Position numbers and translations under genes: made by a program. DNA of 64,000 nucleotides, taken from positions 1 through 64,000 of the forward strand of contig JACRCV010000019.1 of NCBI GenBank assembly GCA_016218825.1. The letters run 5' to 3'. The notes beneath the pieces are model-generated. The model worked only from the letters and a program-made list of their open reading frames with translations, made no database searches and was not told the origin of the DNA. Each line of letters starts with the position of its first letter. Position 1 is the stretch's first letter. Below are positions 37,256-59,442 of the stretch, piece by piece. Origin of the DNA: Deltaproteobacteria bacterium (GTDB lineage: Bacteria > Myxococcota > XYA12-FULL-58-9).

Positions 37256-39364
37256 CTAGCGCGCCGGCACCGCGACGAACGCCCGCTCGCCGCTCGGGCG
37301 GGCGACCAGGCCGACCGCCGAGCCGCCGGCCCCGGCGGCGTAGGCCTGATTGGGCACCGTGCCGGTGACGATCGCTTCCGCCACCGTGGGGTCGATGAAG
37401 CGGGCGTCCCAGGCGCGGGCCGTCACTTGCGTCTGTCGCGTCCAACCAACGATGCGGCCGTCGTCATCGATCGCCGTCGCGCTGCCCTCGACCACTGCGC
37501 CGGCGAGCGGCAACGCCCCGACCTCCGGACGCCAGAGGACGGGATGCGGCTTGGCGTCCGCGGTCTCCGCCTCGCCCACCACGAGGCCGGCGGCGTTCAC
37601 GCCGAAGGCCACCGCGCTCACGAACCCGGTGGGGATGCCCAGATCGACCGGCCCCGCCACCGTGTCGTCGGCCCCGATCTGCCAGACGACCGCGTGCGGT
37701 GCGCCCGCGGCGTCATCGGCCTCACCGACCGCGCGGCCGTCGGCCGCGATGAAGTAGGCGGCGCTGGCCTCGCCGGCGAGCCCGTCGAGCAGCACCGGGC
37801 CCGGGCTCACCGCCCCGGCGGCGTCGACCCGCCAGAGCGCCGCGTGCCTTACGCCGGTCGGCTCCTCGACGACGCCGACCACCTGGCCGCTGCCGTTGAT
37901 GCCGTACGCCGCGGTGGCGAGCCAGCCGCCGCTTCCGGCGAGCGCGACAGGCACGGCGCTCACCCGGTTCCAGAGGACGGCGACCGCGCGGCCGGCCGCG
38001 GCGTCCTCGCAGACGCCGGCGATCTGCCCGAGGTCGTTGATGGCAAACGCGGCGGCCGTGGGATCGGGCGGCGCGGTGGGCAACGCCAACAGCTCGATGG
38101 CGCCGCTGTAGCTCGTGCCGGCCCTCGTCCAGGCCGCGGCGCGCACGGCCCCCGTGGCGACGGTCGATTGGCCGACGACCACGCCCGCGAAGTTGACGCC
38201 GACCGCCAGGCTACGGCTGCCCCCGACGAGCGTCGTCAGATCCCTGACGACGTAGGCGGCGAAGCGCTCGCGGTCGAGCGGCAGCGAGTCGAAGTCGTCG
38301 GCGACGCCGTCGCCATCGTCGTCCGCGTCACACAGGTCGCCGGCGCCGTCGGTGTCCGTGTCGAGCTGGTCGACGTTGACGGTGAGCGGGCAATTGTCGG
38401 TGAGGTCGGGCGTCAGGTCGTTGTCGTTGTCGGCGTCGCAGAGGTCGCCGATGCCGTCGGCGTCTCGATCACCGAGGTCGGCCCCGGGCGTCGTCTTGCA
38501 GTTGTCCTCGTCGTCATCCCAGCCGTCGTTGTCGTCGTCGAGGTCGCAGGCGTCACCGAGGCCGTCGAGGTCGGTGTCGAGCTGGTCGGCGTTCAGCAAG
38601 AGCGGGCAGTTGTCGCTCACGTCCGGCGTCGTATCGCCGTCGTCGTCGTCATCGCACGGGTCGCCAAGGCCGTCGCGGTCGGTGTCGGTCTGGTCGGTGT
38701 CGGCCATGGTCGGGCAGACGTCGCTCGCGTCCGGGATGGCGTCGCTGTCGTCGTCATGGTCGGCGTTGTCACCGACGTGGTCCTGGTCGAGGTCGGCGGT
38801 CTCGCCCGCGTCCCAGGGGAAGGCGTCCTGGGCGTCCGGCGCGTCGTCGCCGTCCTGATTGCCGGACCGATCGCGGACGTCCGGCACCCCGTCGCCGTCG
38901 GCGTCGGCGAGGATGGGTGCCTCAGGCTCGACCGGCGGCAAGAGATCACTGAAGTCGGTGCTCACGAGCACGCGGCCGAGCGCCGGCTCGAGGGTGAGCT
39001 CACCGAGCGCCACCGCGTCGTCACCGTCCGGAAAGTGGAATGGGACCCGCTCGGCCGCACGGGTCACGACGAGGACACCGGCGGTCGGCCCGGCGCCGTC
39101 GAGATCCTCCCGGAAATCAACGAAGTAGTCCCGCCCCGGCGAGAGCCGCAAGGAAAAGCTCGTCGCCGCCGGCGTGATCTCGGCGCGGCTCTCGTCTACG
39201 CCGTCACCGGACACCGCCACCGCGGTGAGCGGCAGCGTCGTCGGCAACGAGCCGGTCAGGCGCGTGCCCGACCCCGTCGTCTCTCCACCGCGACAGCCGA
39301 GGCCGGCGCTGACGAGGGCCGCTAGGGTGAGCTCGAAACTGAGGAGGATGTGGCGGCTGGTCAT
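37256..39364 (-). CDS. TSP3 + HAF-repeat lipoprotein (Q-family)
   Basis: 702 residues, ATG 39364 four nt after the stop of the P-family gene. Lipobox SAGLGC. A short form of the shared N-terminal module at ~30-140 (SFSLRLSPGRDYFVDFRE, GVLVVTRAAERVPFHF, LGELTLEPALGRV). TSP3 units at ~146-361 mix the DAFPWD type with the classical DNCPLLLNADQLDTDLDG type. HAF repeats at ~365-702: NFAGVVVGQSTVATGAVRA, NDLGQIAGVCEDAAAGRA, NGSGQVVGVVEEPTGVRHA, NAAGLVVGEAETADAKPH. Sixty nt upstream of the TSP3 peroxidase, so probably co-transcribed with it. Confidence 0.88.
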   Translation of the reverse strand: MTSRHILLSFELTLAALVSAGLGCRGGETTGSGTRLTGSLPTTLPLTAVAVSGDGVDESRAEITPAATSFSLRLSPGRDYFVDFREDLDGAGPTAGVLVVTRAAERVPFHFPDGDDAVALGELTLEPALGRVLVSTDFSDLLPPVEPEAPILADADGDGVPDVRDRSGNQDGDDAPDAQDAFPWDAGETADLDQDHVGDNADHDDDSDAIPDASDVCPTMADTDQTDTDRDGLGDPCDDDDDGDTTPDVSDNCPLLLNADQLDTDLDGLGDACDLDDDNDGWDDDEDNCKTTPGADLGDRDADGIGDLCDADNDNDLTPDLTDNCPLTVNVDQLDTDTDGAGDLCDADDDGDGVADDFDSLPLDRERFAAYVVRDLTTLVGGSRSLAVGVNFAGVVVGQSTVATGAVRAAAWTRAGTSYSGAIELLALPTAPPDPTAAAFAINDLGQIAGVCEDAAAGRAVAVLWNRVSAVPVALAGSGGWLATAAYGINGSGQVVGVVEEPTGVRHAALWRVDAAGAVSPGPVLLDGLAGEASAAYFIAADGRAVGEADDAAGAPHAVVWQIGADDTVAGPVDLGIPTGFVSAVAFGVNAAGLVVGEAETADAKPHPVLWRPEVGALPLAGAVVEGSATAIDDDGRIVGWTRQTQVTARAWDARFIDPTVAEAIVTGTVPNQAYAAGAGGSAVGLVARPSGERAFVAVPAR

Positions 39365-39368
39365 GGGC

Positions 39369-40898
39369 TCACCGCAAGCTGAGCGGAACGTTCTTGATGG
39401 CTGTCGAGTTGGCGGACACCACGGTCACCGAGCGCCAGCTCTGCTTGACCTCGAAGGCGCCGGCGCACGCCCAGCTGCCGTCGGCCGCGACCGTGGCCTG
39501 CGCCAGGAGCGCGCCGGTCGCGTCGGGTCCGGCGTGGACCCGGATGACGTTGGGGGCGAGATCGGGGCCGAAGGGCTCCGAGGTCGTGCCGGAGACCGCG
39601 AACCGCAGGTGCCGCAGGCGGAGCGCGGCGCGCACGATCTTGAGATCCTCGACGATGACGCTCACGGTCGCCGGCGCCGAGATGAGCCCGCCCGTGTCCT
39701 GGACCACGTACGAGAAGCTGTCGGTCCCGGTGAACCCCGGCGCCGGGGTATAGACGAAGGAGGAGCGGCCGGTCGCGGTCGCCGTGCGCCGGACCACGGT
39801 GCCGTGCGGCGTCGTCGCGGCGATGGCGTACGGCGGCGCCGCGCCCAGGCCGAGACCCTGCGGGTCGATGAAGTGCAGCGAACCGGGGTCGGTGTCGTTG
39901 GCGAGCACGTCGATGTCCACCGCGACGCCGATCGTGGTCCCGCCACGGTCGGGATTGGCCACCGGCGGCTGCGGCGCCGGATCGTCGCGGAAGACCTTCC
40001 CCGACACGCTGAAGCCGGTCGTCTCGACCACGTTGGTGCCCGCGGCGCCGTTCAAGGCGAAGCCGAGCGGCGGGTTCAGGAGCTCGAGGCGCACGAAGTT
40101 CTGCCCGACCGGGCTGCCGGTGATCGGTTGCTCGAGGGGGACGACCAGGCCGTTCACGATCGTCTGCGGGATCGCCAGGTAGAGATCGCCGTTTAGCGCC
40201 TCCAAGAACGGGGGTGTCGCCGCCGGCAAGAGGAACGGCCCGATGCTGCGGTCGAGGACGTCCACCTTGGGCGGCGGCCCGACCTCGCCCGGCAACGGCG
40301 GCGCGGGGCCGTCGAGGAGCGCGAGCGAGTAGTCGCCGGTCCGGCCGGGGCTCACGAAGTTGCCGATCTCCTGGTTGTGGTTGATCTCGCGCCCGCCGCC
40401 GACGCCGCTGACGGCGTAGTCCATCGGCCCGAACGGGTGGGTGATGCGGTAGGTGCCGGTCATCGGCACGTTGGCGCGCACGCGCAGGCGGGCGAAGACC
40501 ACCTGCTGCCCCTCCGCGACCACGAGCGCCGGAAAGCTGGCCACGAGCGCCATCGACACCGTGACGTCACCGGGGGCGCCGAACGGCAGCCCGCCCTGGG
40601 TGCTCGAGAACACCGCGAGCGCGTCCGCCGACCAATACATCTCTTCGACGCCGAAGTTCTGCGGGAACGAGAGGGGGCTGCCCGGCACGGGCTCGAGCGT
40701 CATGCACGGCTTCATGAGCTGACCGCCGACGTCGAGGACCTTGGCCTCGAGGCAGGGCGCGACCTTGAAGCCGGCCGCGTCGGCGTACCAGAGGGGAAAG
40801 CCGTGAGCCAGGCTCGTCGGTCCGAAGCCGGAGAGTGCCGCCTGCGCCGTGCTCGGCGCGATCGCCAAGGCGCAGACGACGAGCGTCAGAGGTCGCAT
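39369..40898 (-). CDS. Exported WY-motif/Ig-like protein (P-family)
   Basis: 509 residues; ATG 40898 preceded by GGAGGAG. Signal peptide to about residue 20 (PSTAQAALSGF). Head: HGFPLWYADAAGFKVAPCL, VEEMYWSAD, QVVFARLRVRAN, TYRITHPFGPMD. Longer than the other single-head members by an insert before the Ig-like domain (SFVYTPAPGFTGTDSFSYVV). C-terminal family domain: LKIVRAALRLRHLRFAVSG, DGSWACAGA, NVPLSLR. It sits between two Q lipoproteins (40986 and 37256), the tightest case of the P/Q pairing (4 nt to the next gene). Confidence 0.8.
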   Translation of the reverse strand: MRPLTLVVCALAIAPSTAQAALSGFGPTSLAHGFPLWYADAAGFKVAPCLEAKVLDVGGQLMKPCMTLEPVPGSPLSFPQNFGVEEMYWSADALAVFSSTQGGLPFGAPGDVTVSMALVASFPALVVAEGQQVVFARLRVRANVPMTGTYRITHPFGPMDYAVSGVGGGREINHNQEIGNFVSPGRTGDYSLALLDGPAPPLPGEVGPPPKVDVLDRSIGPFLLPAATPPFLEALNGDLYLAIPQTIVNGLVVPLEQPITGSPVGQNFVRLELLNPPLGFALNGAAGTNVVETTGFSVSGKVFRDDPAPQPPVANPDRGGTTIGVAVDIDVLANDTDPGSLHFIDPQGLGLGAAPPYAIAATTPHGTVVRRTATATGRSSFVYTPAPGFTGTDSFSYVVQDTGGLISAPATVSVIVEDLKIVRAALRLRHLRFAVSGTTSEPFGPDLAPNVIRVHAGPDATGALLAQATVAADGSWACAGAFEVKQSWRSVTVVSANSTAIKNVPLSLR

Positions 40899-40985: not shown

Positions 40986-42830
40986 CTACCGCCGGGTGGT
41001 GAAACCGAACCGGCCGTTCGGTCCCGCCAAGGTCCCGACCATGACGTCGACGTTGTTGATGCCGGAGGTCATGGCCAACGTCGCGCTCGACGCGGTCGCG
41101 ATCCCGCTGGCGGTCGTCGTGTGGGTGTCCCAGGCCGCGACCTGGCCGAGGCCGCTCGTCGCCGCCGACCAGCCGGCGATCCGGCCGACGCCGTTGATCG
41201 CCGTGGCGCTGCTCGGCGTCGTGGCGAGGCTGATATCGGTGACCTGCACCACCCCGCCGAGCGTCGACCAGCGCAACGCCCGCGTGCTGCCGTCGGCCAG
41301 CGTGCCGTCGCCGACGGCGTCGCCGTGGTCGTTGACGCTGTAGGCCACGCTGGTCACGTACCCCGCGGGCGCGCCTAAATCGATGACCGCGCTCACGTTG
41401 CCGTCGGCGTCGACGTGCCACATGGTCGCGTGGACCCTGCCGAGGCTGTCCGCCGCCTCGCCGACGGCCTGGCCGGCATCGCTGATCGCGTACACCGAGC
41501 AGAACAAGCCGCCGAGCGCCGGCAACACCGTGGGGCCGTTCACGAGCTGGCCGAGCGCGTCGACCGTCCACAAGACGCCCTGCGTGCCGCCGGCGCCGTT
41601 GTCGGATTGACCGACCACCTGCCCGAGGCTGTTGATCCCGTGGGCGACCGTGGCGCCGCCGCCGGCGAAGCCCGGCAGCGCGACCGGATTCAGCGACGCG
41701 TGGTTCCAGACGACGGCCGTGAGCATGCCGACCATGTCTTCGGACTCGCCGACCATCTGGCCGGAGTCGTTGAGCCCGTAGGCCGCGGTGACGGCGTCTT
41801 CGGCGGCGCCGACGAGCGGCAGGAGCGCCTGGGGCGCCACGTAGTTGGTGCCGTCCTGCGTCCAGAGGACGGCCATCCACATGCCGGCCGCATCCATGGC
41901 CTGGCCGACGACGTCGCCGCCGTCGTTGATGGCGCTCCCCACGCTCATCCCGTCAGGGGTCAAGGGGGGCAACGTCTGGATCTGGAAAGTGACGAACCGC
42001 AGGGGATCGAAGGGGAACGCATCGAGGAAGTCGGGCACGCCGTCGTTGTCGGAGTCGCCCTCGCAGGCGTCGCCGAGCCCGTCGCCGTCGCTGTCGAGCT
42101 GGGTCGGGTTGGGGACCGTCTCGCAGTTGTCGAGCCCGTCCGGGATCCCGTCATTGTCGTTGTCGAGGTCGCACAGATCGCCGATGTGATCGTTGTCGCG
42201 ATCCGTCTGGTTGGCGTTGCGGATGGTCGGGCAGTTGTCCTGGTCGTTGCGCACGCCGTCGCCGTCGACGTCGGTGGCGCAGGCGTCACCGGTGCCGTCC
42301 TGGTTGAGATCGGCCTGATCGGGGTTCATCGTCCCCGGGCAGTTGTCGTCGTCGTTGCCGTGACCGTCACCGTCGAGATCGTCGGCGCAGTCGTCGCCGC
42401 GTGTGTCGTCATCCAGGTCGTCCTGGGTCGGATTCGGCGACAGGGGGCAGTTGTCGAGGTCGTCCTCGACGGCGTCGTTGTCGTCATCATCATCGCAGAC
42501 GTCGCCCGGGCCGTCGCCGTCGTGGTCGTCCTGCGCCGGATCCTGGATCATCGGGCAATCGTCGTCATCGTCGCCGACATCGTCATTGTCGTCGTCGGGA
42601 TCGCAGACGTCGCCGGCTCTGTCGCCGTCGTTGTCGCGCTGATCCGGGTTGGCGAGCTCCGGACAGTTGTCGACCCCGTCGAGGACGCCGTCGCTGTCGA
42701 GATCCTGCCGGAGCGGATCCACGTTCCCCGGGGAGCCGCCGTCTGTCCCCGAGTCGCTACAGCCTGCGACCGTGAGGGCCAGCACCGAGAGCGACGCGCA
42801 CAGGAACGGGTTGAGTCGGATCCGCATCAT
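40986..42830 (-). CDS. TSP3 + HAF-repeat lipoprotein without the N-terminal module (Q-family)
   Basis: 614 residues. I chose ATG 42830 because GGAGG sits six nt upstream; other in-frame ATGs at 42836 and 42827 are adjacent. Lipobox ALTVAGC. Unlike the other three Q proteins it goes directly into classical TSP3 units (~33-273; DNCPELANPDQRDNDGDRAG, DVCDPDDDND). HAF repeats from ~290: NDGGDVVGQAMDAAGM, NDSGQMVGESEDMVGMLTA, NSLGQVVGQSDNGAGGTQG, NDHGDAVGDGTLADGSTRA. First gene of the operon 40986-39369-37256-34049, and divergent from the split oxidase gene at 43137. Confidence 0.88.
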   Translation of the reverse strand: MMRIRLNPFLCASLSVLALTVAGCSDSGTDGGSPGNVDPLRQDLDSDGVLDGVDNCPELANPDQRDNDGDRAGDVCDPDDDNDDVGDDDDDCPMIQDPAQDDHDGDGPGDVCDDDDDNDAVEDDLDNCPLSPNPTQDDLDDDTRGDDCADDLDGDGHGNDDDNCPGTMNPDQADLNQDGTGDACATDVDGDGVRNDQDNCPTIRNANQTDRDNDHIGDLCDLDNDNDGIPDGLDNCETVPNPTQLDSDGDGLGDACEGDSDNDGVPDFLDAFPFDPLRFVTFQIQTLPPLTPDGMSVGSAINDGGDVVGQAMDAAGMWMAVLWTQDGTNYVAPQALLPLVGAAEDAVTAAYGLNDSGQMVGESEDMVGMLTAVVWNHASLNPVALPGFAGGGATVAHGINSLGQVVGQSDNGAGGTQGVLWTVDALGQLVNGPTVLPALGGLFCSVYAISDAGQAVGEAADSLGRVHATMWHVDADGNVSAVIDLGAPAGYVTSVAYSVNDHGDAVGDGTLADGSTRALRWSTLGGVVQVTDISLATTPSSATAINGVGRIAGWSAATSGLGQVAAWDTHTTTASGIATASSATLAMTSGINNVDVMVGTLAGPNGRFGFTTRR

Positions 42831-43136
42831 GGCCATCCTCCAGCGCAGCCGCGAAGTCCGCTTCGCGAGCTCAACGCGTCGGAACGTTGCGCACACCTGA
42901 TGCACGGTTCAAGGGTTTAGCGAACGCGACGTTCGCCGGCCGATCCTGACCGCCGTCGTTTCCTCACTGCCAGATCGCGCGGCCAACTTGACTTCGCTTG
43001 CACCCGTCCCACTTTTCCCCTCTGCAGACGATGCGAGTCTCTTAAGGACGGCACCGCGACCGACCTGGCCGCGCCGCGGCGGGGTGCAGGGGCGAGTGCA
43101 ACTCTCGCGCACAACGCGCGAGTGGAGGGTAAAGCG
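42831..43136. promoter_or_regulatory. 306-bp bidirectional control region with a perfect palindrome
   Basis: This gene-free stretch separates the TSP3/peroxidase operon (minus) from the split-oxidase operon (plus). It contains GCGAACG-CGA-CGTTCGC (42920-42936), a perfect 7-bp inverted repeat with a 3-nt spacer, and near the plus-strand gene the hairpin at 43104-43122. No convincing -35/-10 boxes were found. Confidence 0.45.
43104..43122 (+). promoter_or_regulatory. Leader hairpin before the split-oxidase gene
   Basis: CTCGCGC (43104-43110) and GCGCGAG (43116-43122) form a perfect 7-bp stem with a 5-nt loop ending one base before the GGAGGG ribosome-binding site of the gene at 43137. It may be an operator or modulate translation. 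Confidence 0.4.
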
Positions 43137-44579
43137 ATGGATCGGCGAGGGTTCATGTCAGGTGGCACCGCGGGTCTTGCACTACTCCTGGTAGGTAAGA
43201 AGATGCCTTGGGTCCTCGGCGACCCGGCCTACGCGGCCAAGCCGGTGCGGCGCAACACCATCGATTTCACGATCACCGACGCCCTCAAGGACATGGTCAC
43301 CCACAACTCGCTGAACACGGCGCAATGCTACTTCTGGGTATATAAGGAGGCGAGCTTCGCGGCGGACTGTCCCGCGCCGCTCATCTTCGCCACCTCCGGC
43401 GACACCATGTTCTTCAACATCACCAACGCCCTCACCGAGCCGCACGCGCTGTTCATCCCGGGGCCGCCAGGGCAGCCGCCGATGTTCGACAGCGGCCCGA
43501 TCGCGCCCGGACAGACGATCTCCCGGAAGGTGAAGGTCGGGCCGGCCGGCAGCTACCTGTATTACGACAACCTGAATGCGCCGGTGAACCGGATGATGGG
43601 CTTGCACGGCGCCCTCGTGGTCATGCCGCGCAAGGCCGCCCCCGGTCAGCGCTTCACGCCCTATGACAACCCCACGCCCGCGGTCCAGCGGCTCTTCAAC
43701 GAGCTCGGCACCGCGCATTGGCCGGGGCTCGCCTGGGAACAGGGCGACCCGAACCACGCGACCTTCGCGCCCCCCTTCCGGCAGTACATCTGGGTGCTCC
43801 ATCAACCCTCGTCGCACCTGTTCGCCGAGGTCGGGCAGTTCGCGCAGCAGAACCCCGGCCAGCTCTTCCCGGCGCAGAGCTTCATTGACGCGCTGCACAA
43901 CGAGGCGTTCGTCCCGGCCGGCACCTGGGGCGGGAGCCGCAAGTCCGACTACTTCACGATCAACGGGCAGTCGGGGCACTTCGCACACAACAACCCGTAT
44001 TTGTGCCCGAATCTGCGCGTCGGCGAGCCTTGCGTCATCCGCGTCTTGAACGCCGGCATGCAGATGCACTCCATCCACATCCACTGCAACCATCAGTACG
44101 TGCTCTCGTACGAGGGGCAGCAGCGGGACAACCTCTGGTGGGTGGATACCGCCAGCGCCCGACCCATGGGCGGCTTCGAGTGGCTGAACCCCTACATGCG
44201 CTCGCCGGACGTGCCCAACGTCCTCGGCATCGGCCGGGCCGACCTGTCGCCGGGCCTGCCGACCTTGGCGACGGACGGGCACCTCACGTGGCCGCCCACC
44301 GAAGAGCTCAACACCTTCATCCCGCCCGTAGGGACCATGGCCGGCGGGGTCGACATCTCGGTGCGACTGTCGCCGTTGTGCTTCCCGATGCACGACCACT
44401 GTGAGCCGTCGCAGACGGCCCAGGGTGGCAATTACAACTGCGGCATGATCTCCGGCATGAACATCACCGGCGACCGGACGCTCCCGGGCGGCGTCGTGAC
44501 CTTCCCGAACGAGGGTCACATCGGCCATGGCCCGATGCGGACCGGTCTGGCCGCACCTGAGATGAAGGGGCCGGCGTAA
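43137..44579 (+). CDS. Split multicopper oxidase, subunit A1 (Tat-exported, second-domain half)
   Basis: 480 residues from ATG 43137 (GGAGGG seven nt upstream). Tat-type signal with Arg3-Arg4 (MDRRGFMSGG), hydrophobic stretch and cleavage near AYA. Two cupredoxin domains. In the first, the usual HxH motifs are lost: NALTEPHALFI keeps one His, and the YHSH position reads GSYLYYDNLN before MMGLHGALVV. The second keeps trinuclear-site motifs H311-SI-H314-I-H316 and H419-D-H421. The Cys of a canonical HCH is Asp420, so A1 cannot build a normal type 1 site. The missing half is present in B1 encoded 56 nt downstream, so A1 and B1 probably form one enzyme at their interface (inference). Confidence 0.88.
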   Translation: MDRRGFMSGGTAGLALLLVGKKMPWVLGDPAYAAKPVRRNTIDFTITDALKDMVTHNSLNTAQCYFWVYKEASFAADCPAPLIFATSGDTMFFNITNALTEPHALFIPGPPGQPPMFDSGPIAPGQTISRKVKVGPAGSYLYYDNLNAPVNRMMGLHGALVVMPRKAAPGQRFTPYDNPTPAVQRLFNELGTAHWPGLAWEQGDPNHATFAPPFRQYIWVLHQPSSHLFAEVGQFAQQNPGQLFPAQSFIDALHNEAFVPAGTWGGSRKSDYFTINGQSGHFAHNNPYLCPNLRVGEPCVIRVLNAGMQMHSIHIHCNHQYVLSYEGQQRDNLWWVDTASARPMGGFEWLNPYMRSPDVPNVLGIGRADLSPGLPTLATDGHLTWPPTEELNTFIPPVGTMAGGVDISVRLSPLCFPMHDHCEPSQTAQGGNYNCGMISGMNITGDRTLPGGVVTFPNEGHIGHGPMRTGLAAPEMKGPA

Positions 44580-44635
44580 GCAAGCGAAGCAACTCGGTGG
44601 GAGACACTCCCAAGCAACAACGCGAGGACACGATC

Positions 44636-45991
44636 ATGTCATTTTCGAACCCAGGTTTTCGCATCCCCCGCCAGTCGATCGTCGGCCACGAAGGCGAATG
44701 GGTCAAGATGTGGGATCCACCCACGGCGAGCCCGGCGACACCCGAGCTCGTGGCACCCACGAACCCGGTGCCGGCATTCATCGCCTCGCCGGCGTCCCTC
44801 GTCGCGGGGGCGACCAACGCCATCCCGAACACGGTCCAGCGCCGGTTGATGCACGGCCTGCCGCTGACCATGTGGGACGGCAAGTCCGTGACCTTCTTCG
44901 TCTTCAGCGATCCGGACATCCCCTCCACCTCGGGCGGGACGTTCCCGGCCCCCACCATCCGGGTGCCGCGCGGGGTGATCTTTCATGGCGCGACCTCGGC
45001 CGGCGGCCCGCCGCCGCACACCATCCATTGGCACGGCATGGAGCCGACGCCGATGAACGACGGGGTCGGTCACTGCTCCATGGAGATCGGCTCGTACACC
45101 TACCAGTTCCAGCCGAACTTCATCGGCACCTACTTCTACCATTGCCACCGCAACACGGTGCAGCACTTCGAGTTCGGGCTCTACGGCATGCTCCTGGTCG
45201 AGGCGCCGGACGCCTACGACCCGACCGACGGCAAGAACGTCGGCGGCTATCCGCGGCGGATCGCGGCCAACATCCCGCCGGCGCCCTTCCCCATCCAGAT
45301 CCCGGGGTTCGACTCGACGCCGGTCCACATCATCAACGCGGCCACCGGCAAGCCGTTCCCGCACGCCATGACCGTGCCCTACGACGTCGAGGCCTTGTGG
45401 GTGCTCGACGACCGCGACTCGGTCTGGAGCGATCTCGCGCCGAGCGCCTTTACCACTTTCCCGCGCCACGGCTCGCAGCCGGGCGTCAACGACCTCTTCC
45501 ACCTGAACGCGGGGGTCTCGGACTTCTTTGCCTTCAACGACTACAAACCGGACTACTTCTTCGTCTCGGGCGTCAACGTCCCGGGTGCCGTCGGCTCGCC
45601 CAATCCCGTGGCGATCCCCGGCAACATCGTGGTGCCGCCGGCTCTCAACAGCGGCGTCTCCGGGATGCAGGTCTCGATCAACGCCGCGGTGGGGCAGACC
45701 GTCCTGGTGCGTTGCCTGGATGCCGCCTACGCGTACGCCGAGATCACCTTCCCGATGGACGTCGTCATCATCGCGTTCGACGGTCGCGCCCTCGGCGTGC
45801 CGCCGTTCGGCAACTACAGCTCGGCCTACATCCTGCCCGCGAACACGCCGATCGAGCTCACCACCGCTCGGCGTTTCGACGCGCTCATGCGGCCGACCCA
45901 GGTCGGGAGCTTCTCGGCGCTCGCGAAGCTCCGCGACTACCGTACCGGCGGTGACCTCATCACGATCGAGATCCCGATCACCATCGTGTGA
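44636..45991 (+). CDS. Split multicopper oxidase, subunit B1 (first-domain half, no signal peptide)
   Basis: 451 residues; ATG 44636 with GAGG eight nt upstream. The N-terminus (MSFSNPGFRIPRQS) shows no export signal. First cupredoxin domain: H128-TI-H131-W-H133-G, then EPTPMNDGVG, and H169-C170-H171-x5-H177-FEFGL. This has all ligands for a type 1 site (His128, Cys170, His177) and four trinuclear-site His. In the second domain the motifs are gone: the HxxHxH position reads AYAYAEITF and the HCH position SFSALAKLRDY. This is the mirror image of A1. Likely co-exported with A1 through Tat (inference). Laccase-like substrates or metal ions are possible. Confidence 0.88.
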   Translation: MSFSNPGFRIPRQSIVGHEGEWVKMWDPPTASPATPELVAPTNPVPAFIASPASLVAGATNAIPNTVQRRLMHGLPLTMWDGKSVTFFVFSDPDIPSTSGGTFPAPTIRVPRGVIFHGATSAGGPPPHTIHWHGMEPTPMNDGVGHCSMEIGSYTYQFQPNFIGTYFYHCHRNTVQHFEFGLYGMLLVEAPDAYDPTDGKNVGGYPRRIAANIPPAPFPIQIPGFDSTPVHIINAATGKPFPHAMTVPYDVEALWVLDDRDSVWSDLAPSAFTTFPRHGSQPGVNDLFHLNAGVSDFFAFNDYKPDYFFVSGVNVPGAVGSPNPVAIPGNIVVPPALNSGVSGMQVSINAAVGQTVLVRCLDAAYAYAEITFPMDVVIIAFDGRALGVPPFGNYSSAYILPANTPIELTTARRFDALMRPTQVGSFSALAKLRDYRTGGDLITIEIPITIV

Positions 45992-45996
45992 CGGTC

Positions 45997-47319
45997 ATGA
46001 ATCGGCAACACCTTGTGTTGGGGGTGGCGCTGGCAACGGCCGCGGCCGCTTGCCGGAGCGACGAGACCGATCCACGACCGCCCACCGTGAGCCTGAGCCT
46101 CGGAGCCGTCGACGTGGCGGGAAGCCCGACCACGGCGGCGCTCCCGTTGAACCCCGCCACCGGCATGCTGGTCGTCGACTCGGAGAGCCCGTGTGCCGTC
46201 GTCATCACCGCGACGCCCAGTCCGGACACGCACGACCCGGTGCGCCTGCTTCACGAGGGCAGCGGCGACCCGAGCACCCTGGCGGTGTACTCGGACGTGC
46301 CGGTGCGGGACCCGTTGGCCGAGGTCATCTACAACCGCGGCGTCAACATCGCGCCGGCCTTCCACGCGCGTCCGGGGAGCGCCGGCGACGGCGCCGAGGT
46401 GATCGCGGTGCTCGTCGCCGTGCCGCAAGACGCCCTGACGGCGCTCGCGACCTTCACCGCCAGAGTGGCGGACGCGGCGGGGCTCGGCTCCGAGGTGGAG
46501 GAGACGACGGTCGAGCTGGCCACCCCCTTCCCGCCGGAGGCTCGCGGCACGCTCCAAGCAGCGCCGACGCCGGGCGCGGGCGCGCTCACCGGCGTCCTGT
46601 TGCCGCAGCGGCTCGTCGGCGGCCACAGCGTGCTCACTTCCCCGGCCACGCCCTTTGCCCTCACCGTCGAGGTGCTGCCGAACCCGCAGTCGGGCCTGAA
46701 GCTCGATCTGGTCGACGAGGCGACCGGGCGCGGCGATCCCGCGACCCTCCTCGTCACGGTCGACGTCGCGCTCGGGGACCCACGGCAGGGAGGCGTAGAC
46801 GCCGGCGAGAACCTGGCGCAGCGCTTCAACGCCGACGTCGCCCCGCTCGTCGACCCGGTGACCGGCGCCACGACCGTCGCTTTCGTGGCGGCGGCCGGCC
46901 TCGTGCCGCCGCCCGGCACCGCCACCTTCACCGTCCGAGTGGTCGACGTCGGCGGCCACCGTTCGCTGACCACCCGGGTCGCCCTGGACGTCTCGGCGGG
47001 CGCGTCGTTCTCCCGGGACGTGCAGCCGATCTTCACCGGCCTGTGCGCCCAATGCCACTTCTCGCCGTACGGGATGTCCCCCTCGCTCGCGCAAGGCACG
47101 AGCTACGCACAGATCGTCGGCGTCTTCGGCCAGCAGGTGGCGATGCCGATCGTTCAGCCGTTCACCCCGTCGCGGAGCTACCTCCTGCACAAGATCGCCG
47201 GGACCTTCGAGGACGTCGGCGGCGGCGGCGTGCGGATGCCGCGGTACTTGCCGCCGTTGAACGGCGTGGAGCTCGAGACCATCGAGGATTGGATCCTCTT
47301 GGGCGCGCCCAACGACTGA
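45997..47319 (+). CDS. Lipoprotein with C-terminal mono-haem c domain
   Basis: 440 residues. ATG 45997 follows the B1 stop by 5 nt; a GTG at 45988 overlaps that stop and is an alternative start. Lipobox TAAAAC. Residues ~35-340 are beta-rich, probably three or four Ig-like domains (TATPSPDTHDPVRLL, TFTARVADAAGLGSE, TFTVRVVDVGGHRSLTTRV), without a recognised family. The C-terminal ~100 residues are a cytochrome c: DVQPIFTGLCAQCHFSP, then YLLHKIAG, VRMPRYLPPLNGVELETIEDWI with a candidate Met ligand. As third gene of the A1-B1 operon it is a good candidate electron partner for the split oxidase, tethered by lipid (inference). Confidence 0.87.
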   Translation: MNRQHLVLGVALATAAAACRSDETDPRPPTVSLSLGAVDVAGSPTTAALPLNPATGMLVVDSESPCAVVITATPSPDTHDPVRLLHEGSGDPSTLAVYSDVPVRDPLAEVIYNRGVNIAPAFHARPGSAGDGAEVIAVLVAVPQDALTALATFTARVADAAGLGSEVEETTVELATPFPPEARGTLQAAPTPGAGALTGVLLPQRLVGGHSVLTSPATPFALTVEVLPNPQSGLKLDLVDEATGRGDPATLLVTVDVALGDPRQGGVDAGENLAQRFNADVAPLVDPVTGATTVAFVAAAGLVPPPGTATFTVRVVDVGGHRSLTTRVALDVSAGASFSRDVQPIFTGLCAQCHFSPYGMSPSLAQGTSYAQIVGVFGQQVAMPIVQPFTPSRSYLLHKIAGTFEDVGGGGVRMPRYLPPLNGVELETIEDWILLGAPND

Positions 47320-52560: not shown

Positions 52561-53766
52561 ATGCACGGCCATGACCTTCAATGGTGTATCTCGAGCAAAG
52601 AGTGGAGTCGGCGTGACGCGTTGACGCTCGGTGGCGTCGGGCTCGCGACCCTGTCGTTGCGCTCGGTCGCCTGCCACGCCGCTCTCGGCGGACCGCTCGA
52701 CCCCGAGCTGTCGATCGGCGAGGCGCTCGTCGAGATGATCGACGGGGAGCTGGTGTACGCCTGGGCGTTCGGCGACCCGCGGCGCGGCCCCAGTGTTCCC
52801 GGGCCGGTGCTCGAGGCGTTCGCCGGCCAGGAGCTGCAGGTCACCGTCACCAACACGCTGTCGACCCCGCACGCCTTCGCGGTCCTCGGCACACCGATCG
52901 CGACCAAACCGATCGCGCCCGGCGCCACCGAGACCCTGACCTTCCGCGCCCCGCCGGCCGGGACCTACCTCTACGTCGACCCGCTCTCGGCGCCGGTGAA
53001 CCGACTCATGGGGCTGCACGGGGCGATGGTGGTTCTGCCGGAGGAGCGAGCGGGCACGCCCTACAGCGCCCCGACACCCGCCGTCGCCAGGCTCTTCGGC
53101 GACCTCGGGACGACCGAGCACTTCCCCGGCGAGCCGTGGCAGAGCGACCGCTCGCGGGTGTGGCTGTTCGGCTCGGTCGACTTGCGCCTCCCCGACTCCA
53201 TCAGCCGCGGTGCGACGTTCGACATGAACGAGTTCCTGCCCGGCTACTTCACCATCAACGGCCTCTCCGGCGCGTTCGCCTCGCATGACCCCGAGACGAT
53301 CCCCAAGGGCAGACTCGGCGAGCCCCACCTCGTCCGCATCCTGAACGCCGGCATGGCCGCCCACTCGCCCCACTTCCACGCCAACCACGTCTACGTCCTG
53401 GCCAGGAACAACGTCGTCCAGGAGAACGTCGTCCTCGTCGACTCGTTCACGGTCGGACCGACCGAGCGGGTCGACGTGCTCCTGCCGTTCATGCGACCGC
53501 CCGACGTCGCCGGCGATCCGCAGACCCCGCTGCGTGACCTCGTCAAGCACGAGCTCGGGATGAGGCTGGGCACGCCGCAACGTCCGCTCGCCTACCCGAT
53601 GCACTGCCACATGGAGATGTCGCAGACCGCCGCCGGCGGCAACTACCCCCAGGGGCTCGTGACCCACTGGGAAATCACCGGCGACCTGGACGGTGTGGAT
53701 TTCCCGGAATCGGAGCTGGAGAGCCAGTCCACGGGTGGAGACCGCCATGACCATTCCAGTCATTAG
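52561..53766 (+). CDS. Split multicopper oxidase, subunit A2 (Tat-exported, second-domain half)
   Basis: 401 residues; ATG 52561 after GGGGAGGTG. Twin Arg17-Arg18 in SRRDALTLGG followed by a hydrophobic stretch gives a Tat signal. First cupredoxin domain degenerate as in A1: NTLSTPHAFAVLG, GTYLYVDPLSAPVNRLMGLHG. Second domain: H268-SP-H271-F-H273-ANH and H348-C349-H350-MEMSQTAAGGNY. Unlike A1 the Cys of HCH is kept, but no His stands where a type 1 ligand is expected, so a normal type 1 site in A2 is doubtful. Trinuclear-site His are intact. Overlaps the B2 gene by 20 nt, implying coupled synthesis in a fixed ratio. The tail is His/Asp-rich (GGDRHDHSSH). Confidence 0.88.
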   Translation: MHGHDLQWCISSKEWSRRDALTLGGVGLATLSLRSVACHAALGGPLDPELSIGEALVEMIDGELVYAWAFGDPRRGPSVPGPVLEAFAGQELQVTVTNTLSTPHAFAVLGTPIATKPIAPGATETLTFRAPPAGTYLYVDPLSAPVNRLMGLHGAMVVLPEERAGTPYSAPTPAVARLFGDLGTTEHFPGEPWQSDRSRVWLFGSVDLRLPDSISRGATFDMNEFLPGYFTINGLSGAFASHDPETIPKGRLGEPHLVRILNAGMAAHSPHFHANHVYVLARNNVVQENVVLVDSFTVGPTERVDVLLPFMRPPDVAGDPQTPLRDLVKHELGMRLGTPQRPLAYPMHCHMEMSQTAAGGNYPQGLVTHWEITGDLDGVDFPESELESQSTGGDRHDHSSH

Positions 53767-54829
53767 CCGCATGCCGATGCCCACCGAGGAGTCGGCGGCC
53801 TTCTTCAAGCACGTCTGCCCGCCGACCTTCGCCGGCGACAACCCCGACCCGGTAGAGCCGACGGTACGCATCGCCCGGGACCTGGTCGTCGACTTCGCGC
53901 TCGCCCTGCCGGAAGGCGACAGCGTGCCGATGTGGATCATCGAGGACCCGGAGGACGCGAGGCTCGGTCGCCAGTTTCCCTCCAAGCTCATCCGCCTCAG
54001 GGAAGGCGACGTCGTCCATGCGAAGGTAGGCGCCAAGAAGAACACCCACACGATTCATTGGCACGGCATCGAGCCCACGCCGATGAACGACGGGGTGGGC
54101 AAGCACTCCTTCGAGGTCGGCGCGAGCTTCGTCTATCAGTTCTGCGCGCGCCAGGCCGGCACCTACTTCTACCACTGTCACAAGAACACGCCGCTGCACT
54201 TCGAGATGGGCCTCTACGGCCTGCTCATCGTCGATCCGCCGGAGGGGCAAGGCGTCGTGACGCGCTTGGCGCCCGAGCAGGGTCACCGGGAGCACTACGA
54301 CGTCGAGGCCTTCTGGGTGCCGGACGAGATCGACCGACGCTGGCACGAGCTCGGCCACGAGGCCTTCATGCAGAAGTGTGACGAGGCCGACCCGGTGCGC
54401 CGGGACGACTTCAGCCACGGCGGCATCCTGAACGATTTCCGGCCCGACGTCTTCCTGGTGACCGGCGTGCCGGCCGCCAGGCGCGACCCGAAGATCGTCG
54501 ATCCCCGCGTCGCCGTCTCGGCGCACGCCGGCCAGACCATTCTCCTGCGGGTCCTCAACGCCGGTTACACCGTGCAGCGGTTCACGCTCGACCTCGACGC
54601 CGAGGTCATCGCCATGGACGGCCGGCCGCTGGGAGTGCCACCCTACGGCGTGTACTCCTCCCCGTTCACGCTGCCGGCCAGGACGCCGTTCCAGCTGACC
54701 TCGGCCATGCGCTGGGAGCTCCTGCTCAAGCCGACCGTCCCCGGCACCTACCCGGCGCAGGTGGAGTACTTCCACTGGGTCACCGGCAAGAGGCTGGCGA
54801 CGGTGAGGACCCAGATCAAGGTCCTGTGA
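53747..54829 (+). CDS. Split multicopper oxidase, subunit B2 (first-domain half, no signal peptide)
   Basis: 360 residues; ATG 53747, GGAG six nt upstream, inside the end of the A2 gene. No export signal (MTIPVISRMPMPTEES). First cupredoxin domain: H101-TI-H104-W-H106-G, EPTPMNDGVG, H143-C144-H145-x5-H151-FEMGL, giving a full type 1 set and four trinuclear-site His. Second domain lacks motifs: NAGYTVQRFTLDLDAEVIAMDG-type strand without His (positions ~277-298) and GTYPAQVEYFHW where HCH would be. Closely parallels B1, and is shorter by ~90 residues. Needs A2 to complete the copper cluster (inference) and probably travels with it through Tat. Confidence 0.88.
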   Translation: MTIPVISRMPMPTEESAAFFKHVCPPTFAGDNPDPVEPTVRIARDLVVDFALALPEGDSVPMWIIEDPEDARLGRQFPSKLIRLREGDVVHAKVGAKKNTHTIHWHGIEPTPMNDGVGKHSFEVGASFVYQFCARQAGTYFYHCHKNTPLHFEMGLYGLLIVDPPEGQGVVTRLAPEQGHREHYDVEAFWVPDEIDRRWHELGHEAFMQKCDEADPVRRDDFSHGGILNDFRPDVFLVTGVPAARRDPKIVDPRVAVSAHAGQTILLRVLNAGYTVQRFTLDLDAEVIAMDGRPLGVPPYGVYSSPFTLPARTPFQLTSAMRWELLLKPTVPGTYPAQVEYFHWVTGKRLATVRTQIKVL

Positions 54830-54937
54830 GTGCGCGTCGCGGTCGCGGTCTCGACAACACCCACCTTCGTGCACATGGTTCCCGCGATTCTTCCGCAACA
54901 CCCGACGTGTGCCCGACGGGCAAGAGAGGGGGCTCTC

Positions 54938-57040
54938 ATGGTCACTTCAAGAACACTGGTCTCGATCCTGGTTGCCGGCCTGCTGGGCGCGGGGCCCCTC
55001 GCCTGTAACGACGATGATGATGGTCAAGGGCAGCCCGCCGGCTCGCTCGACCTCCGGATCACCGGCACCGGCTTCGCGCCGCACAACGGCGAGGTGATGA
55101 GCCTGGCCCTGACGACCACCGCCGGCCAAGTGCTGACCCGCGGCGCGGCGCTGGTTGCCGATGGCGGCTTCGCCTTCACCTTCCCCGGCAGCCTGGAGCG
55201 CGGCCTTGGCTACCGCCTCGACTACTACACCGATCATGACCACGACGGCGTCTGCACGACTCCGGTCCTGGCCGGCGATCACGGCTGGACCGCGACGGTG
55301 CCGACGGTTACGGACGCGGTGACGCAGACGCTCACGCACAACGTCATCTTCGGCGCCGGCGTCTGCGCCAGCTTCCCCACCCACGCCCTGACCTTCTCCG
55401 GGACGTTCGCGCCGCACGCCGGCCGGACCTTCTATGCCGCCCTGGTGCGCGAGCTCGATGGCTTCCCGGTCGCGACCACCAGCATGCTCATCCCCGCAGG
55501 CGGGGCCGTGTCGCTGCTGTTTGCCGCCCGGCTGCAGGACGGCCTGAGCTATCATCTCGACTACTTCGTGGACGCCAACGCCAACGCCGCCTGCGAGACG
55601 CCGGCGTTGACCGCGGATCAGGGCTGGCGAATCGCCGTCCCGACCGTGAGCGGCGACGTGACGCTCAGCCGCTCGGAGGACACGACTTTCGAGCCGTCGG
55701 TCTGCGCCTCCTTCCCGGTCAACGGCGGTCGCGGCACCTTCGTCGCCGTCGGGACGATGAAGAAGGGCAGCATCATCATCAACGGCGTGCGCTTTGACGA
55801 CAGCGCCGCGGACATCACCGTGGACGACGTGCCCCATCAGGACGCCGCCGCGCTCGAGGACGGCATGCAGGTCACCGTCCGTGGCAGCGTCGACGACAAC
55901 GGCATCGATGGCGTCGCCGACACGGTCGAGGTGGAGAACCAGGTGCGCGGCGTCATCACCTCCCTGGTCTTGCCCGACGGCTTCATGGTGATGGGCAAGA
56001 CGGTCGTCGTCGACGGCATCACGGTGTTCGCCAACGTCGTAGACTTCGCCGGCCTCGCCGTCGGTCAGGACGTGGAGGTCCATGGCGAGGAGGACTTGGC
56101 CGGCGTGATCCGCGCCAGCCGCGTCGAGGTGGTCACCGGGGCCGGCCTCGCCGACGAGCTGCGCGGCGTCGTCGCCGGCCTCGACGGCACCGCGAAGACC
56201 TTCACCCTCGGCGCGCTGTCGGTCAACTACGCCGGCGCCGTCATCCTGCCCGCGGACTCGACCCTCGCCGACGGCCAGCTCGTCGAGGCGCACGGGGCCG
56301 TGCAGACCGGGGTCTTGGTCGCCACCCGGATCGATGTCGAGAACCTCGAGGACGACCGGCTCGATCCGGATAACGGCGACGACGTGCACCTCGAGGGCTT
56401 CGTCAGCGGCTTCACCGCCCACCCCGGCGCCTTCACGGTCGGCGAGCAAGCGGTCGTCACCACGGCGACGACGCGGTTCACGGGCGGCATTCCGACCGAT
56501 CTCGCCAATGACGTCAAGGTCGAGGCCGAGGGTGCCATCAGCGCCGGGGTGCTCACCGCGTACAAGATCGAGTTCAAGGACAGCCTGCGGCTCGAAGCCA
56601 ACCTCGACGCGGTCGACGCCGGCGCGCGCGCCCTCACCATCATGGGCAAGACCGTCGTGCTCGGCAGCACCACCGAGCTCTCGGGCGTCGCCGCCGTCGA
56701 GAACCTGACGGTGGGCGGTGGCGTCCGCGTGCGTGGCTTCCTCAACAACGACGGCCTCACCCTGTCGGCGACCCGGGTCGACGCGCAGAGCAATCCGGTC
56801 GCCGCCGATCGCCTGATCCTCCAGGGGAAGGTGACCGGCAGCGACGCGGTGGCCAAGACGATCGTCGTGGTCGGCATGACGCTCGACGCGTCGGGGGCCG
56901 GGGTGCAGTTCCGGAGCGAGGAGGACGCGGCCATGACCGCCGCGGAGTTCTTCGCCGCGATCACCGGCACGAGCATCGTCAAGGGACGCGGCACCCTCGC
57001 CGGCGCGACCCTCACCGTCGACCAGCTCGAGTTCGAGTAG
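54938..57040 (+). CDS. Lipoprotein with two N-terminal ~115-aa repeats and a DUF5666 region
   Basis: 700 residues from ATG 54938 (GAGGGGG six nt upstream). Lipobox GPLAC, Cys23, then an Asp run. Residues ~30-150 and ~150-265 are two copies of the repeat also found at 2-352 (FAPHNGEVMSLAL / FAPHAGRTFYAAL; GVCASFP / SVCASFP). Residues ~268-700 are DUF5666-type units (GTMKKGSIIINGVRFDDSAA, VEVHGEEDLAGVIRASRVEV, VEAEGAISAGVLTAYKIEFK), ending DQLEFE as in the gene at 20485. Surface protein of unknown role. It lies 108 nt after B2 on the same strand, so it might be transcribed with the oxidase pair. Confidence 0.85.
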   Translation: MVTSRTLVSILVAGLLGAGPLACNDDDDGQGQPAGSLDLRITGTGFAPHNGEVMSLALTTTAGQVLTRGAALVADGGFAFTFPGSLERGLGYRLDYYTDHDHDGVCTTPVLAGDHGWTATVPTVTDAVTQTLTHNVIFGAGVCASFPTHALTFSGTFAPHAGRTFYAALVRELDGFPVATTSMLIPAGGAVSLLFAARLQDGLSYHLDYFVDANANAACETPALTADQGWRIAVPTVSGDVTLSRSEDTTFEPSVCASFPVNGGRGTFVAVGTMKKGSIIINGVRFDDSAADITVDDVPHQDAAALEDGMQVTVRGSVDDNGIDGVADTVEVENQVRGVITSLVLPDGFMVMGKTVVVDGITVFANVVDFAGLAVGQDVEVHGEEDLAGVIRASRVEVVTGAGLADELRGVVAGLDGTAKTFTLGALSVNYAGAVILPADSTLADGQLVEAHGAVQTGVLVATRIDVENLEDDRLDPDNGDDVHLEGFVSGFTAHPGAFTVGEQAVVTTATTRFTGGIPTDLANDVKVEAEGAISAGVLTAYKIEFKDSLRLEANLDAVDAGARALTIMGKTVVLGSTTELSGVAAVENLTVGGGVRVRGFLNNDGLTLSATRVDAQSNPVAADRLILQGKVTGSDAVAKTIVVVGMTLDASGAGVQFRSEEDAAMTAAEFFAAITGTSIVKGRGTLAGATLTVDQLEFE

Positions 57041-57924: not shown

Positions 57925-59442
57925 TCACAGACTGGTCTGAAGCTCGATCTCCTCGGCGGTGAGGACCTCACCGACCAGGCTCTCGGGCCCGGCGCCCCGG
58001 GCCTTGACCAGGGTCTTGTTGATCTCGATGTCCGCGAGGCGCGCCGGCGTCGCGGTGCCGTCGCCGGTGCCGCTCTGGTTCGCCTCGACCGCGCTCACCC
58101 TGGCCGAGCCGGTCGCCACCGTGAGGCCGAGCATGGTCAAGGTGCCGGCCACCTCGTCCTTGGCGCTCACCGTCGACTCGACGAAGATCCGCGAGTCGTC
58201 CACGCTCTCGACGCGGGTCGCCAGGATGTCGCTGCCGTTTTGCGCCAGCCGCCCGCGGATCTTCACCGCGCCGCCGAGCGCTGCCAGGTCGAGGGTGCTG
58301 CCGCTCTCGCCCCGGAGCTCGGTCATGGCGTCGACGAGGATGGTCGAGCCCAACAGCTCGAACGAGCCTTCGTGCGCGCCGATCGCCGCGAGCGCCGTCA
58401 CCGGACCCTGCAGGCGCAAGAACTCGCGCAGGGAGACCCGACGGGCCACGAGGATACCGTCGGCGCTGAGCGAGCCTTTGGCCTCGACCTTCACACCGGG
58501 CAGGATCTCGGTGGCCAAGCCGCCGACGAACACGGTCATGGCGTCGGTCGTGACCGACTGACCGGCGACGACGAAGGCGCTGGCATCGCCACTCGTCACC
58601 AGGCCCTCGACCTCGAGCTCGGCGAAGTGCTCGTCCTCGCGCTCGTGCTCGTCCTCGCGCCCGATGTGCTCGTCCTCGAGCTCGATGCGGGAAGCGACGA
58701 GGCTCTCGCCCTCGGGGGCGGTCCGCGCCTTGATCTCGACGAATGAGCCTTCGGCGATGCCTGCCGGCAGGGTCGCGCCCTCGGCGAGCGTGACGTGATA
58801 GAACGGGGCGCCGTCGATGGTCATGAGCAGGTCGAAGGCCGCCGCGGGCTCGATCGAGAGGCCGGCCACGTAGCCCTTGATCTCGAGCTCGAACTCGGCC
58901 TCGTCTTCGGGCGCGGGGGTGTCGTCGATGCGGCTGGCGCGCACCCAGCCGCTGTCGTCGGGCTCGCCGAATACGCGCACCGGCGTGCCGACCGGGACCA
59001 CGGACAGGTCGCCCAGGCCGGCCGAGACCACCGTGGCTCGGGAAAGCTGTACCGGGTGGTTGCCGACGTAGACCACGTCGACGCCGTGACCGGTGACTCG
59101 CCCGCGCACGGTGTGGGCCACGCGGACGCTCTCGGCCACGAGGCCGTTCACGCCCGGGGTGCCGGCGGCGACCGCCATCATGCCGAGCTCTACCGCCTCG
59201 ACGATGGCCAGATGCCCGTCGATCTCGACCACGGCACCCGACGTGTCAATGACGGTACCGGCGATCGTCAGCCTCACCTTGCTGGTCACCGCGCCGCGCA
59301 CGACCGACAGGGGTGCGATCCCCGGGGCCGACGGCTCGGCTTCGACCGTCTTCTCGTCGCTCGGTGCCGTGCCGCACGCCGCGAGCACGACGACCAGGAT
59401 CGCTACGCTCAAGAGGTTCATTTGGATCGAAGTCGCGTTCAT
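57925..59442 (-). CDS. DUF5666-type lipoprotein with EDEH metal-binding-like loop
   Basis: 505 residues; ATG 59442 preceded by AAGGAG. Lipobox VVLAAC. Beta-rich repeats of the DUF5666 kind: VRVFGEPDDSGWVRASRI, VEIKARTAPEGESLVASRIE, VEAKGSLSADGILVARRVSL, VKIRGRLAQNGSDILATRVE. Mid-protein (~250-275) is a charged loop with three EDEH copies in EDEHIGREDEHEREDEHFAE. Its acidic/His spacing suggests binding of divalent metal (inference). Third DUF5666 protein of the window. It has its own terminator downstream and a 151-nt gap upstream to the RCC1 gene, so it is probably a separate transcription unit. Confidence 0.83.
   Translation of the reverse strand: MNATSIQMNLLSVAILVVVLAACGTAPSDEKTVEAEPSAPGIAPLSVVRGAVTSKVRLTIAGTVIDTSGAVVEIDGHLAIVEAVELGMMAVAAGTPGVNGLVAESVRVAHTVRGRVTGHGVDVVYVGNHPVQLSRATVVSAGLGDLSVVPVGTPVRVFGEPDDSGWVRASRIDDTPAPEDEAEFELEIKGYVAGLSIEPAAAFDLLMTIDGAPFYHVTLAEGATLPAGIAEGSFVEIKARTAPEGESLVASRIELEDEHIGREDEHEREDEHFAELEVEGLVTSGDASAFVVAGQSVTTDAMTVFVGGLATEILPGVKVEAKGSLSADGILVARRVSLREFLRLQGPVTALAAIGAHEGSFELLGSTILVDAMTELRGESGSTLDLAALGGAVKIRGRLAQNGSDILATRVESVDDSRIFVESTVSAKDEVAGTLTMLGLTVATGSARVSAVEANQSGTGDGTATPARLADIEINKTLVKARGAGPESLVGEVLTAEEIELQTSL

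Follow-up and report, generated by a model that had tools for sequence, protein, structure and literature searches.

The adjacent genes at positions 43,137 to 45,991 of the window, i.e. the whole 64,000-nucleotide stretch of DNA analysed here, encode two cupredoxin proteins, A1 and B1, each with one half of the ligands of a shared putative copper site. We conclude, with a probability of about 0.86, that they are obligate subunits of one extracytoplasmic, hetero-oligomeric multicopper oxidase related to the type C two-domain oxidases. The eight histidines of a trinuclear cluster and the His-Cys-His set of a type 1 copper site, which mark a multicopper oxidase, are present in A and B jointly and in neither chain singly. 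To our knowledge, all cluster ligands of the known multicopper oxidases come from one gene. The literature that we searched, mostly without subscription journals, gave no account of two different chains sharing a trinuclear cluster, and queries on multicopper oxidases in split, heterodimeric or heterotrimeric form, on Geobacter OmpB and on mnxA/mnxB left the A/B pair undescribed. The preliminary description of the window likewise knew of no characterised enzyme of this form.

Half sites in the window

Both genes lie on the + strand, with ATG starts at 43137 and 44636 and a gap of 56 nt between them. Each product has two cupredoxin domains and one match to Pfam Cu-oxidase_3 (PF07732; E 2.9e-11 for A1 and 2.3e-12 for B1), and the fold search with models of homologues, described below, agrees with cupredoxin domains of the Cu-oxidase families. 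The copper ligands are confined to domain 2 in A1 and to domain 1 in B1 (Table 1). Domain 1 of A1 has no full copper motif: the HxH and HCH are gone, with YLYYD replacing YHCH, and His103, the first His of the lost motif, is retained. In the HCHx5H segment of B1, Leu182 lies five residues past His177, and alignment with homologues reveals no conserved copper motif in domain 2. The retained and lost motifs of both chains, including H311, HIH (314/316) and HDH (419/421) in A1 and HTIHWHG and HCHx5H in B1, are those of the preliminary description, whose residue numbers are exact.

A second, diverged pair, A2/B2 (52561-54829), which was absent from that description, is located 8 kb downstream of A1/B1, and its two ORFs overlap by 20 nt. 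A2 has HCH where A1 has HDH. Because Ser replaces the required His at the type 1 position in both, neither the A1 form nor the A2 form has a type 1 copper site. Pairs of the A1 type (HDH) and of the A2 type occur together in several genomes, including that of the window.

Table 1. Features of the window and of related three-gene or two-gene clusters (positions refer to the window, or to the locus where an L number is given).
Feature	Position	Strand	Basis or remark
Thrombospondin type 3 repeat protein	37256-39364	-	
Secreted Big_9-type protein with HGFPLWYADAAG motif	39369..40898	-	relatives flank A/B in 9 other loci
Thrombospondin type 3 repeat protein	40986-42905	-	
A1, subunit A, 480 aa	43137..44579	+	ORF and Pfam PF07732; alignment with A2 and homologues
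A1 twin-arginine signal (MDRRGFMSGG...AYAA)	43137..43247	+	homologue alignment, simple scan
A1 H311-S-I-H314-I-H316, half of the trinuclear-cluster ligands of A	44067..44084	+	homologue alignment
A1 H419-D-H421, second half of the ligands of A; no Cys, Ser425 at type 1 His position	44391..44399	+	
B1, subunit B, 451 aa	44636..45991	+	ORF and Pfam PF07732
B1 H128-T-I-H131-W-H133-G, type 1 His128 and two trinuclear-cluster His	45017..45037	+	homologue alignment
B1 H169-C170-H171...H177...L182, two cluster His, type 1 Cys170/His177, axial Leu182	45140..45181	+	
Lipoprotein with C-terminal CAQCH haem-type motif, directly after B1	45988..47319	+	ORF
A2, subunit A of the diverged pair, 401 aa; HSPHFH, HCH; Tat-type N-terminus	52561..53766	+	42% identical to A1
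B2, subunit B of the second pair, 360 aa; HTIHWHG, HCHKNTPLHFEMGL	53747..54829	+	41% identical to B1
Lipoprotein-like protein, four DUF5666 domains, adjoining A2/B2	54830-57040	+	
Lipoprotein-like protein, four DUF5666 domains, near A2/B2	57925-59442	-	
B'-A'-C' cluster, L121	1747-5912	-	
B'-A'-C' cluster, L122	3338-7831	+	
B'-A'-C' cluster, L123	2906-8999	+	
B'-A' in Paraburkholderia, L171	1299-4542	+	

Conservation of the split and pairing of the genes

When 84,980 species genomes were scanned with an alignment of A sequences, 204 relatives of A were returned, 80 of which were kept. The kept loci come from Nitrospirae, Desulfuromonadales, other deltaproteobacteria, Bacillus/Neobacillus and Alphaproteobacteria, as well as from Chloroflexi, Actinomycetota, Armatimonadetes, Phycisphaerae and others; sphingomonads are also among the bacteria with A/B genes. 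On plasmids, tblastn detected pairs in Indioceanicola and one Arthrobacter pair resembling an A-B fusion broken by a frameshift. In the latter (L039, 5716-8063, a plasmid of Arthrobacter sp. FW305-BF8), the A frame enters the N-terminal part of B and a different frame continues B, a pattern that a frameshift within a fused A-B gene, or a sequencing error, would produce. The viral contigs searched contain no relatives of A.

In the alignment, H314, H316, H419 and H421 of A are invariant in all 89 homologues, as are Asn318 and His319, while H311 is found in 87 and Ser425 in 88 of them; residue 420 is variable (Cys 49, Asp 37, Gly 2, Ser 1). For B, H128, H131, H133, H169, C170, H171 and H177 are invariant in 83 of 83 homologues, with Leu (45) or Met (38) at the axial position. 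Because the ligands are retained to this extent (89/89 in A and 83/83 in B), the complementary half sites are not a matter of chance. The preliminary description had the pair jointly supplying eight cluster His and a type 1 site in B, and this holds for all 81 full pairs, counted over the 80 kept loci, the window and the plasmid loci: each has the complete set of eight cluster His and type 1 His/Cys/His, always split into four His from A and four His plus the type 1 site from B. Among these 81 pairs no B has regained a domain-2 copper motif, and one A only has an incidental domain-1 HxH.

The adjacent homologous pairs that the preliminary description had proposed to look for in other genomes exist in many bacterial phyla, with B directly downstream of A for 83 of 89 A ORFs. 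Five of the six remaining ORFs are at contig or locus ends, and the sixth is on P. aurescens pTC1, where A is accompanied by B fragments only. By our count of strong hits, 20 whole genomes contain 33 full A and 33 B genes (besides one extra A fragment on another contig), and every A adjoins a B on the same strand, with seven pairs in Skermanella. This 33:33 co-occurrence, together with the natural fusion, the coevolution, the signal peptide confined to A and the confident joint model described below, bears out the obligate partnership. Within the phylum of the window, the pair is found in 1 of 195 genomes, that of the source, which suggests that the source genome gained it laterally.

At several loci B has a C-terminal extension of 200-400 aa (L104, 3582-5840 and 7476-9965; L106, 4454-6703; L120, 7520-9736; also L073, L088, L100 and L109), which in L104 and L106 contains CarboxypepD_reg beta-sandwich domains.

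Export signal

The N-terminal signal of A1 is widely shared: twin Arg is aligned in 87 of 89 A homologues, and in 81 of 89 a simple scan recovers RR with a hydrophobic stretch behind it. At nearly all loci, including those of B1 and B2, the N-termini of B begin with charged or polar residues and have no signal peptide; L090 and L117 are signal-like exceptions, and L118 is ambiguous. Since a copper oxidase of such a kind works outside the cytoplasm, the missing signal of B is most simply explained by co-export on the Tat signal of A, a form of hitch-hiking that is established for hydrogenases. This explanation would imply that A and B assemble before export.

Natural fusion and predicted structures

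One MAG contig (L042) contains a natural A-B fusion, a single 858-aa frame in which A is followed by B with no Met at the start of B. Its AlphaFold2 model, built on 752 residues from an alignment of 52 locus sequences with paired read-through rows that leaves out one row from a plasmid locus, has a pLDDT of 92.1 and a pTM of 0.92. L102 is a same-frame pair of the A1/B1 type (57% identical to the window pair in A and 55% in B), and its read-through model has a pLDDT of 81.6 and a pTM of 0.86, with a disordered linker of 47 residues. Because the pTM of L102 is 0.86 despite this linker, the relative placement of A and B is predicted with confidence.

Foldseek gives MnxG (9bxa) as the best match of both models and ceruloplasmin among the top PDB matches. 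The superposition is loose (TMq 0.4-0.5, rmsd 10-15 Å), as would be expected because the models span four of the six domains. The match to the type C subunits 2zwn and 3g5w has a TMt of 0.67-0.68.

Coevolution and origin

The trees of A and B (81 sequences each) are correlated with r = 0.83, compared with a permuted maximum of 0.13. When A and B were re-paired within genomes that have several pairs, the observed value was reached in 0 of 1000 trials, and the sequences indicate that A/B pairs duplicate as units. In a joint tree, A, B, the chains A', B' and C' of a similar split system (see below) and the two-domain oxidases form one clade apiece, with support of 100 each for A and B, and A groups with A' and C' with a support of 89. 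The two-domain outgroup of this tree is small, since an L124-based search of the phylum gave mostly three-domain oxidases. Against the two-domain oxidases and the A'/C' proteins, a common clade of A and B (p-AU 0.53) is neither supported nor rejected, and a grouping of A with A' (p-AU 0.31) is equally undecided. The preliminary description derived the pair from a two-domain homotrimer whose gene was duplicated and whose copies then degenerated reciprocally, which is a possible origin.

Genes with a similar but different arrangement are found in genomes of the phylum of the window, where the B'-A'-C' cluster encodes three two-domain cupredoxin proteins with one copper site (Table 1). B' has the type 1 site and half of the cluster in domain 1, A' has half of the cluster in domain 2, and C' has two cupredoxin domains with zero ligands. 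The likeness to A/B is that the type 1 site and half of the cluster reside in one chain and the other half in a second; the differences are the gene order, the third, copper-less chain and the secretory-looking N-termini on B' and A'. Its sequences suggest a heterotrimer that has one trinuclear centre, an arrangement resembling what would be expected of a heterotrimeric ceruloplasmin. The cluster strengthens the idea of a split two-domain oxidase and raises the question of the A/B stoichiometry.

Genomic neighbourhood and possible substrate

A SCO1/SenC copper chaperone is a neighbour of A/B in 22 loci, and secreted Ig/cadherin-type proteins of the HGFPLWY group are frequent neighbours as well. 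MopA-like animal haem peroxidases occur near A/B in 6 loci. Four loci have a large multicopper oxidase or a CopD-like gene nearby, and in Bacillus-type loci and L114 such neighbours are CopC/CopD-like genes or a large MnxG-like multicopper oxidase (L064, 8944-13363; L069, L084, L114). An NRAMP metal transporter lies close to the Arthrobacter pairs. In P. putida, the mnxG operon includes an SCO gene (PMC8218464). Taken with the neighbours of A/B, this points weakly to metal oxidation, and a metal (Mn, Fe or Cu) is our first, tentative guess for the substrate. Two 'novel MCOs' are reported to be encoded by Ca. Manganitrophaceae (PMC9040806).

In the window, two thrombospondin type 3 proteins bracket the HGFPLWY-type protein (39369-40898), and relatives flank A/B in the Desulfuromonadales loci L054, L055 and L085. 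The CAQCH lipoprotein encoded directly after B1 is a possible partner of A1/B1; it has no Pfam match and no relatives in other A/B loci, and we dropped it as a third cupredoxin chain for lack of a Pfam match and of conservation. The two DUF5666 proteins beside A2/B2 likewise have no relatives among the neighbours of other A/B loci.

Proposed enzyme and alternative explanations

The half sites, the strict pairing, the signal restricted to A, the fusion and the coevolution are evident from the sequences; O2 reduction, co-export and the geometry of the A-B interface are what we infer. The type 1 copper of B (His128, Cys170, His177 and axial Leu182) would be the site of substrate oxidation, B would contribute four cluster His, and domain 2 of A the remaining four. 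In type C trimers, domain 2 of one chain packs against domain 1 of the next; by analogy, contact between A domain 2 and B domain 1 would complete the cluster at a single interface. From Cys170, electrons would reach the cluster by way of His169/His171 and there reduce O2 to water, and the copper-less domains of A and B would serve as a scaffold. Assembly of A and B probably takes place in the cytoplasm, and the two would exit jointly on the twin-arginine signal of A, with copper loaded outside.

A ring of three two-domain chains would require a third subunit or an uneven A:B stoichiometry. Such a pseudo-trimer with a single copper site, whether A2B, AB2 or A and B with a third chain, would be the multi-chain counterpart of ceruloplasmin, and it fits the trimeric type C relatives, the six-domain best fold matches (MnxG and ceruloplasmin) and the B'-A'-C' cluster of the same phylum, which has exactly three two-domain chains and one copper site. 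However, a third two-domain gene is absent from the window and from the recurring A/B neighbours, and the four-domain fusion is modelled confidently by itself, so that we regard this composition as possible but rather doubtful.

Two further explanations would dispense with the shared cluster. If the two chains formed separate homo-oligomers, with A as a copper binder, B as a blue copper protein and the residues as relics, each chain would simply be a two-domain cupredoxin protein by itself, and copper sites have been lost in many cupredoxin proteins. The half sites should then decay, yet the cluster His are invariant (89 A, 83 B), and the strict pairing and the L042 fusion also make this explanation very improbable. 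A NirK-like nitrite reductase, whose copper would be limited to types 1 and 2, is still less probable. NirK trimers do consist of two-domain chains that have type 1 copper in domain 1, and weak TIGR02376 matches exist, but the eight cluster His are invariant and B has the HCH of oxidases instead of the HCA/HCP of NirK. Membership of the NirK family was rejected, with TIGR02376 scores of 17-45 bits (17.5 for A1 and 17.2 for B1) against a cut-off of 296.3 bits.

As a broader reading of the hetero-oligomeric oxidase, we give even credence to the view that A and B represent widespread, undescribed, obligate hetero-oligomeric multicopper oxidases, with a trinuclear centre made by two gene products, assembly before export and Tat export on one signal, which together with B'-A'-C' would be multi-chain counterparts on the route from the homotrimer to MnxG and ceruloplasmin. 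The conserved split shows how a three-site homotrimer could shed two sites by using different chains, a step that has been proposed to lie between two-domain oxidases and enzymes of the ceruloplasmin type, and it makes the half sites separately mutable. The usual labels of the genes are 'multicopper oxidase domain-containing protein' and 'hypothetical protein', and singly they look inactive. They are candidates for metal oxidation in view of their presence in Nitrospirae, Desulfuromonadales, Bacillus, sphingomonads and others, where some of them adjoin MopA-like peroxidases, MnxG-like oxidases or NRAMP transporters.

Comparison with known oxidases

Two-domain oxidases are trimers with cluster ligands from two protomers and are typed by the T1 position, which in type C is in the N-terminal domain (PMC13151041). 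The sequence of B1 matches domain 1 of the two-domain oxidases 3gdc, 3g5w and 2zwn. In A1, the half with the copper ligands aligns with domain 2 of 3g5w and 2zwn, both of type C, with HSIHIH over HAMHSH and HDHCEPSQTAQGG over HDHVDTHVTAGG. From these alignments, the four His of A correspond to domain 2 of type C and the type 1 site and four His of B to domain 1, as the likeness noted in the preliminary description implies. A/B shares with type C (mgLAC 2zwn and Nitrosomonas BCO 3g5w) the domain order, the type 1 site in domain 1, HxH and HCH in domain 1, HxxHxH and HxH in domain 2, and the expected position of the cluster, where domain 2 of one chain meets domain 1 of its neighbour. The difference is that type C has one gene, three identical chains and three copper sites, whereas A/B has two genes with half a site each. 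B1 has the two cupredoxin domains and N-terminal type 1 site of type C, A lacks a type 1 site, and no A or B homologue has all four His pairs in one chain.

NirK is likewise a two-domain cupredoxin trimer with type 1 copper in domain 1 and an interchain active site; it differs in being a homotrimer and in having a three-His type 2 site instead of an eight-His trinuclear cluster. MnxG and ceruloplasmin, the top fold matches of the joint A-B models, are six-domain rings with one trinuclear centre at an interface of the domain 2/domain 1 type, formed by a single long chain in contrast to the two chains of A/B. The Mnx complex is composed of a single 138 kDa MCO chain with MnxE and MnxF, which are accessory and have no similarity to characterised proteins (PMC5622069). 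Unlike A (480 aa) and B (451 aa), both of which contain cluster ligands, MnxE and MnxF carry no half cluster.
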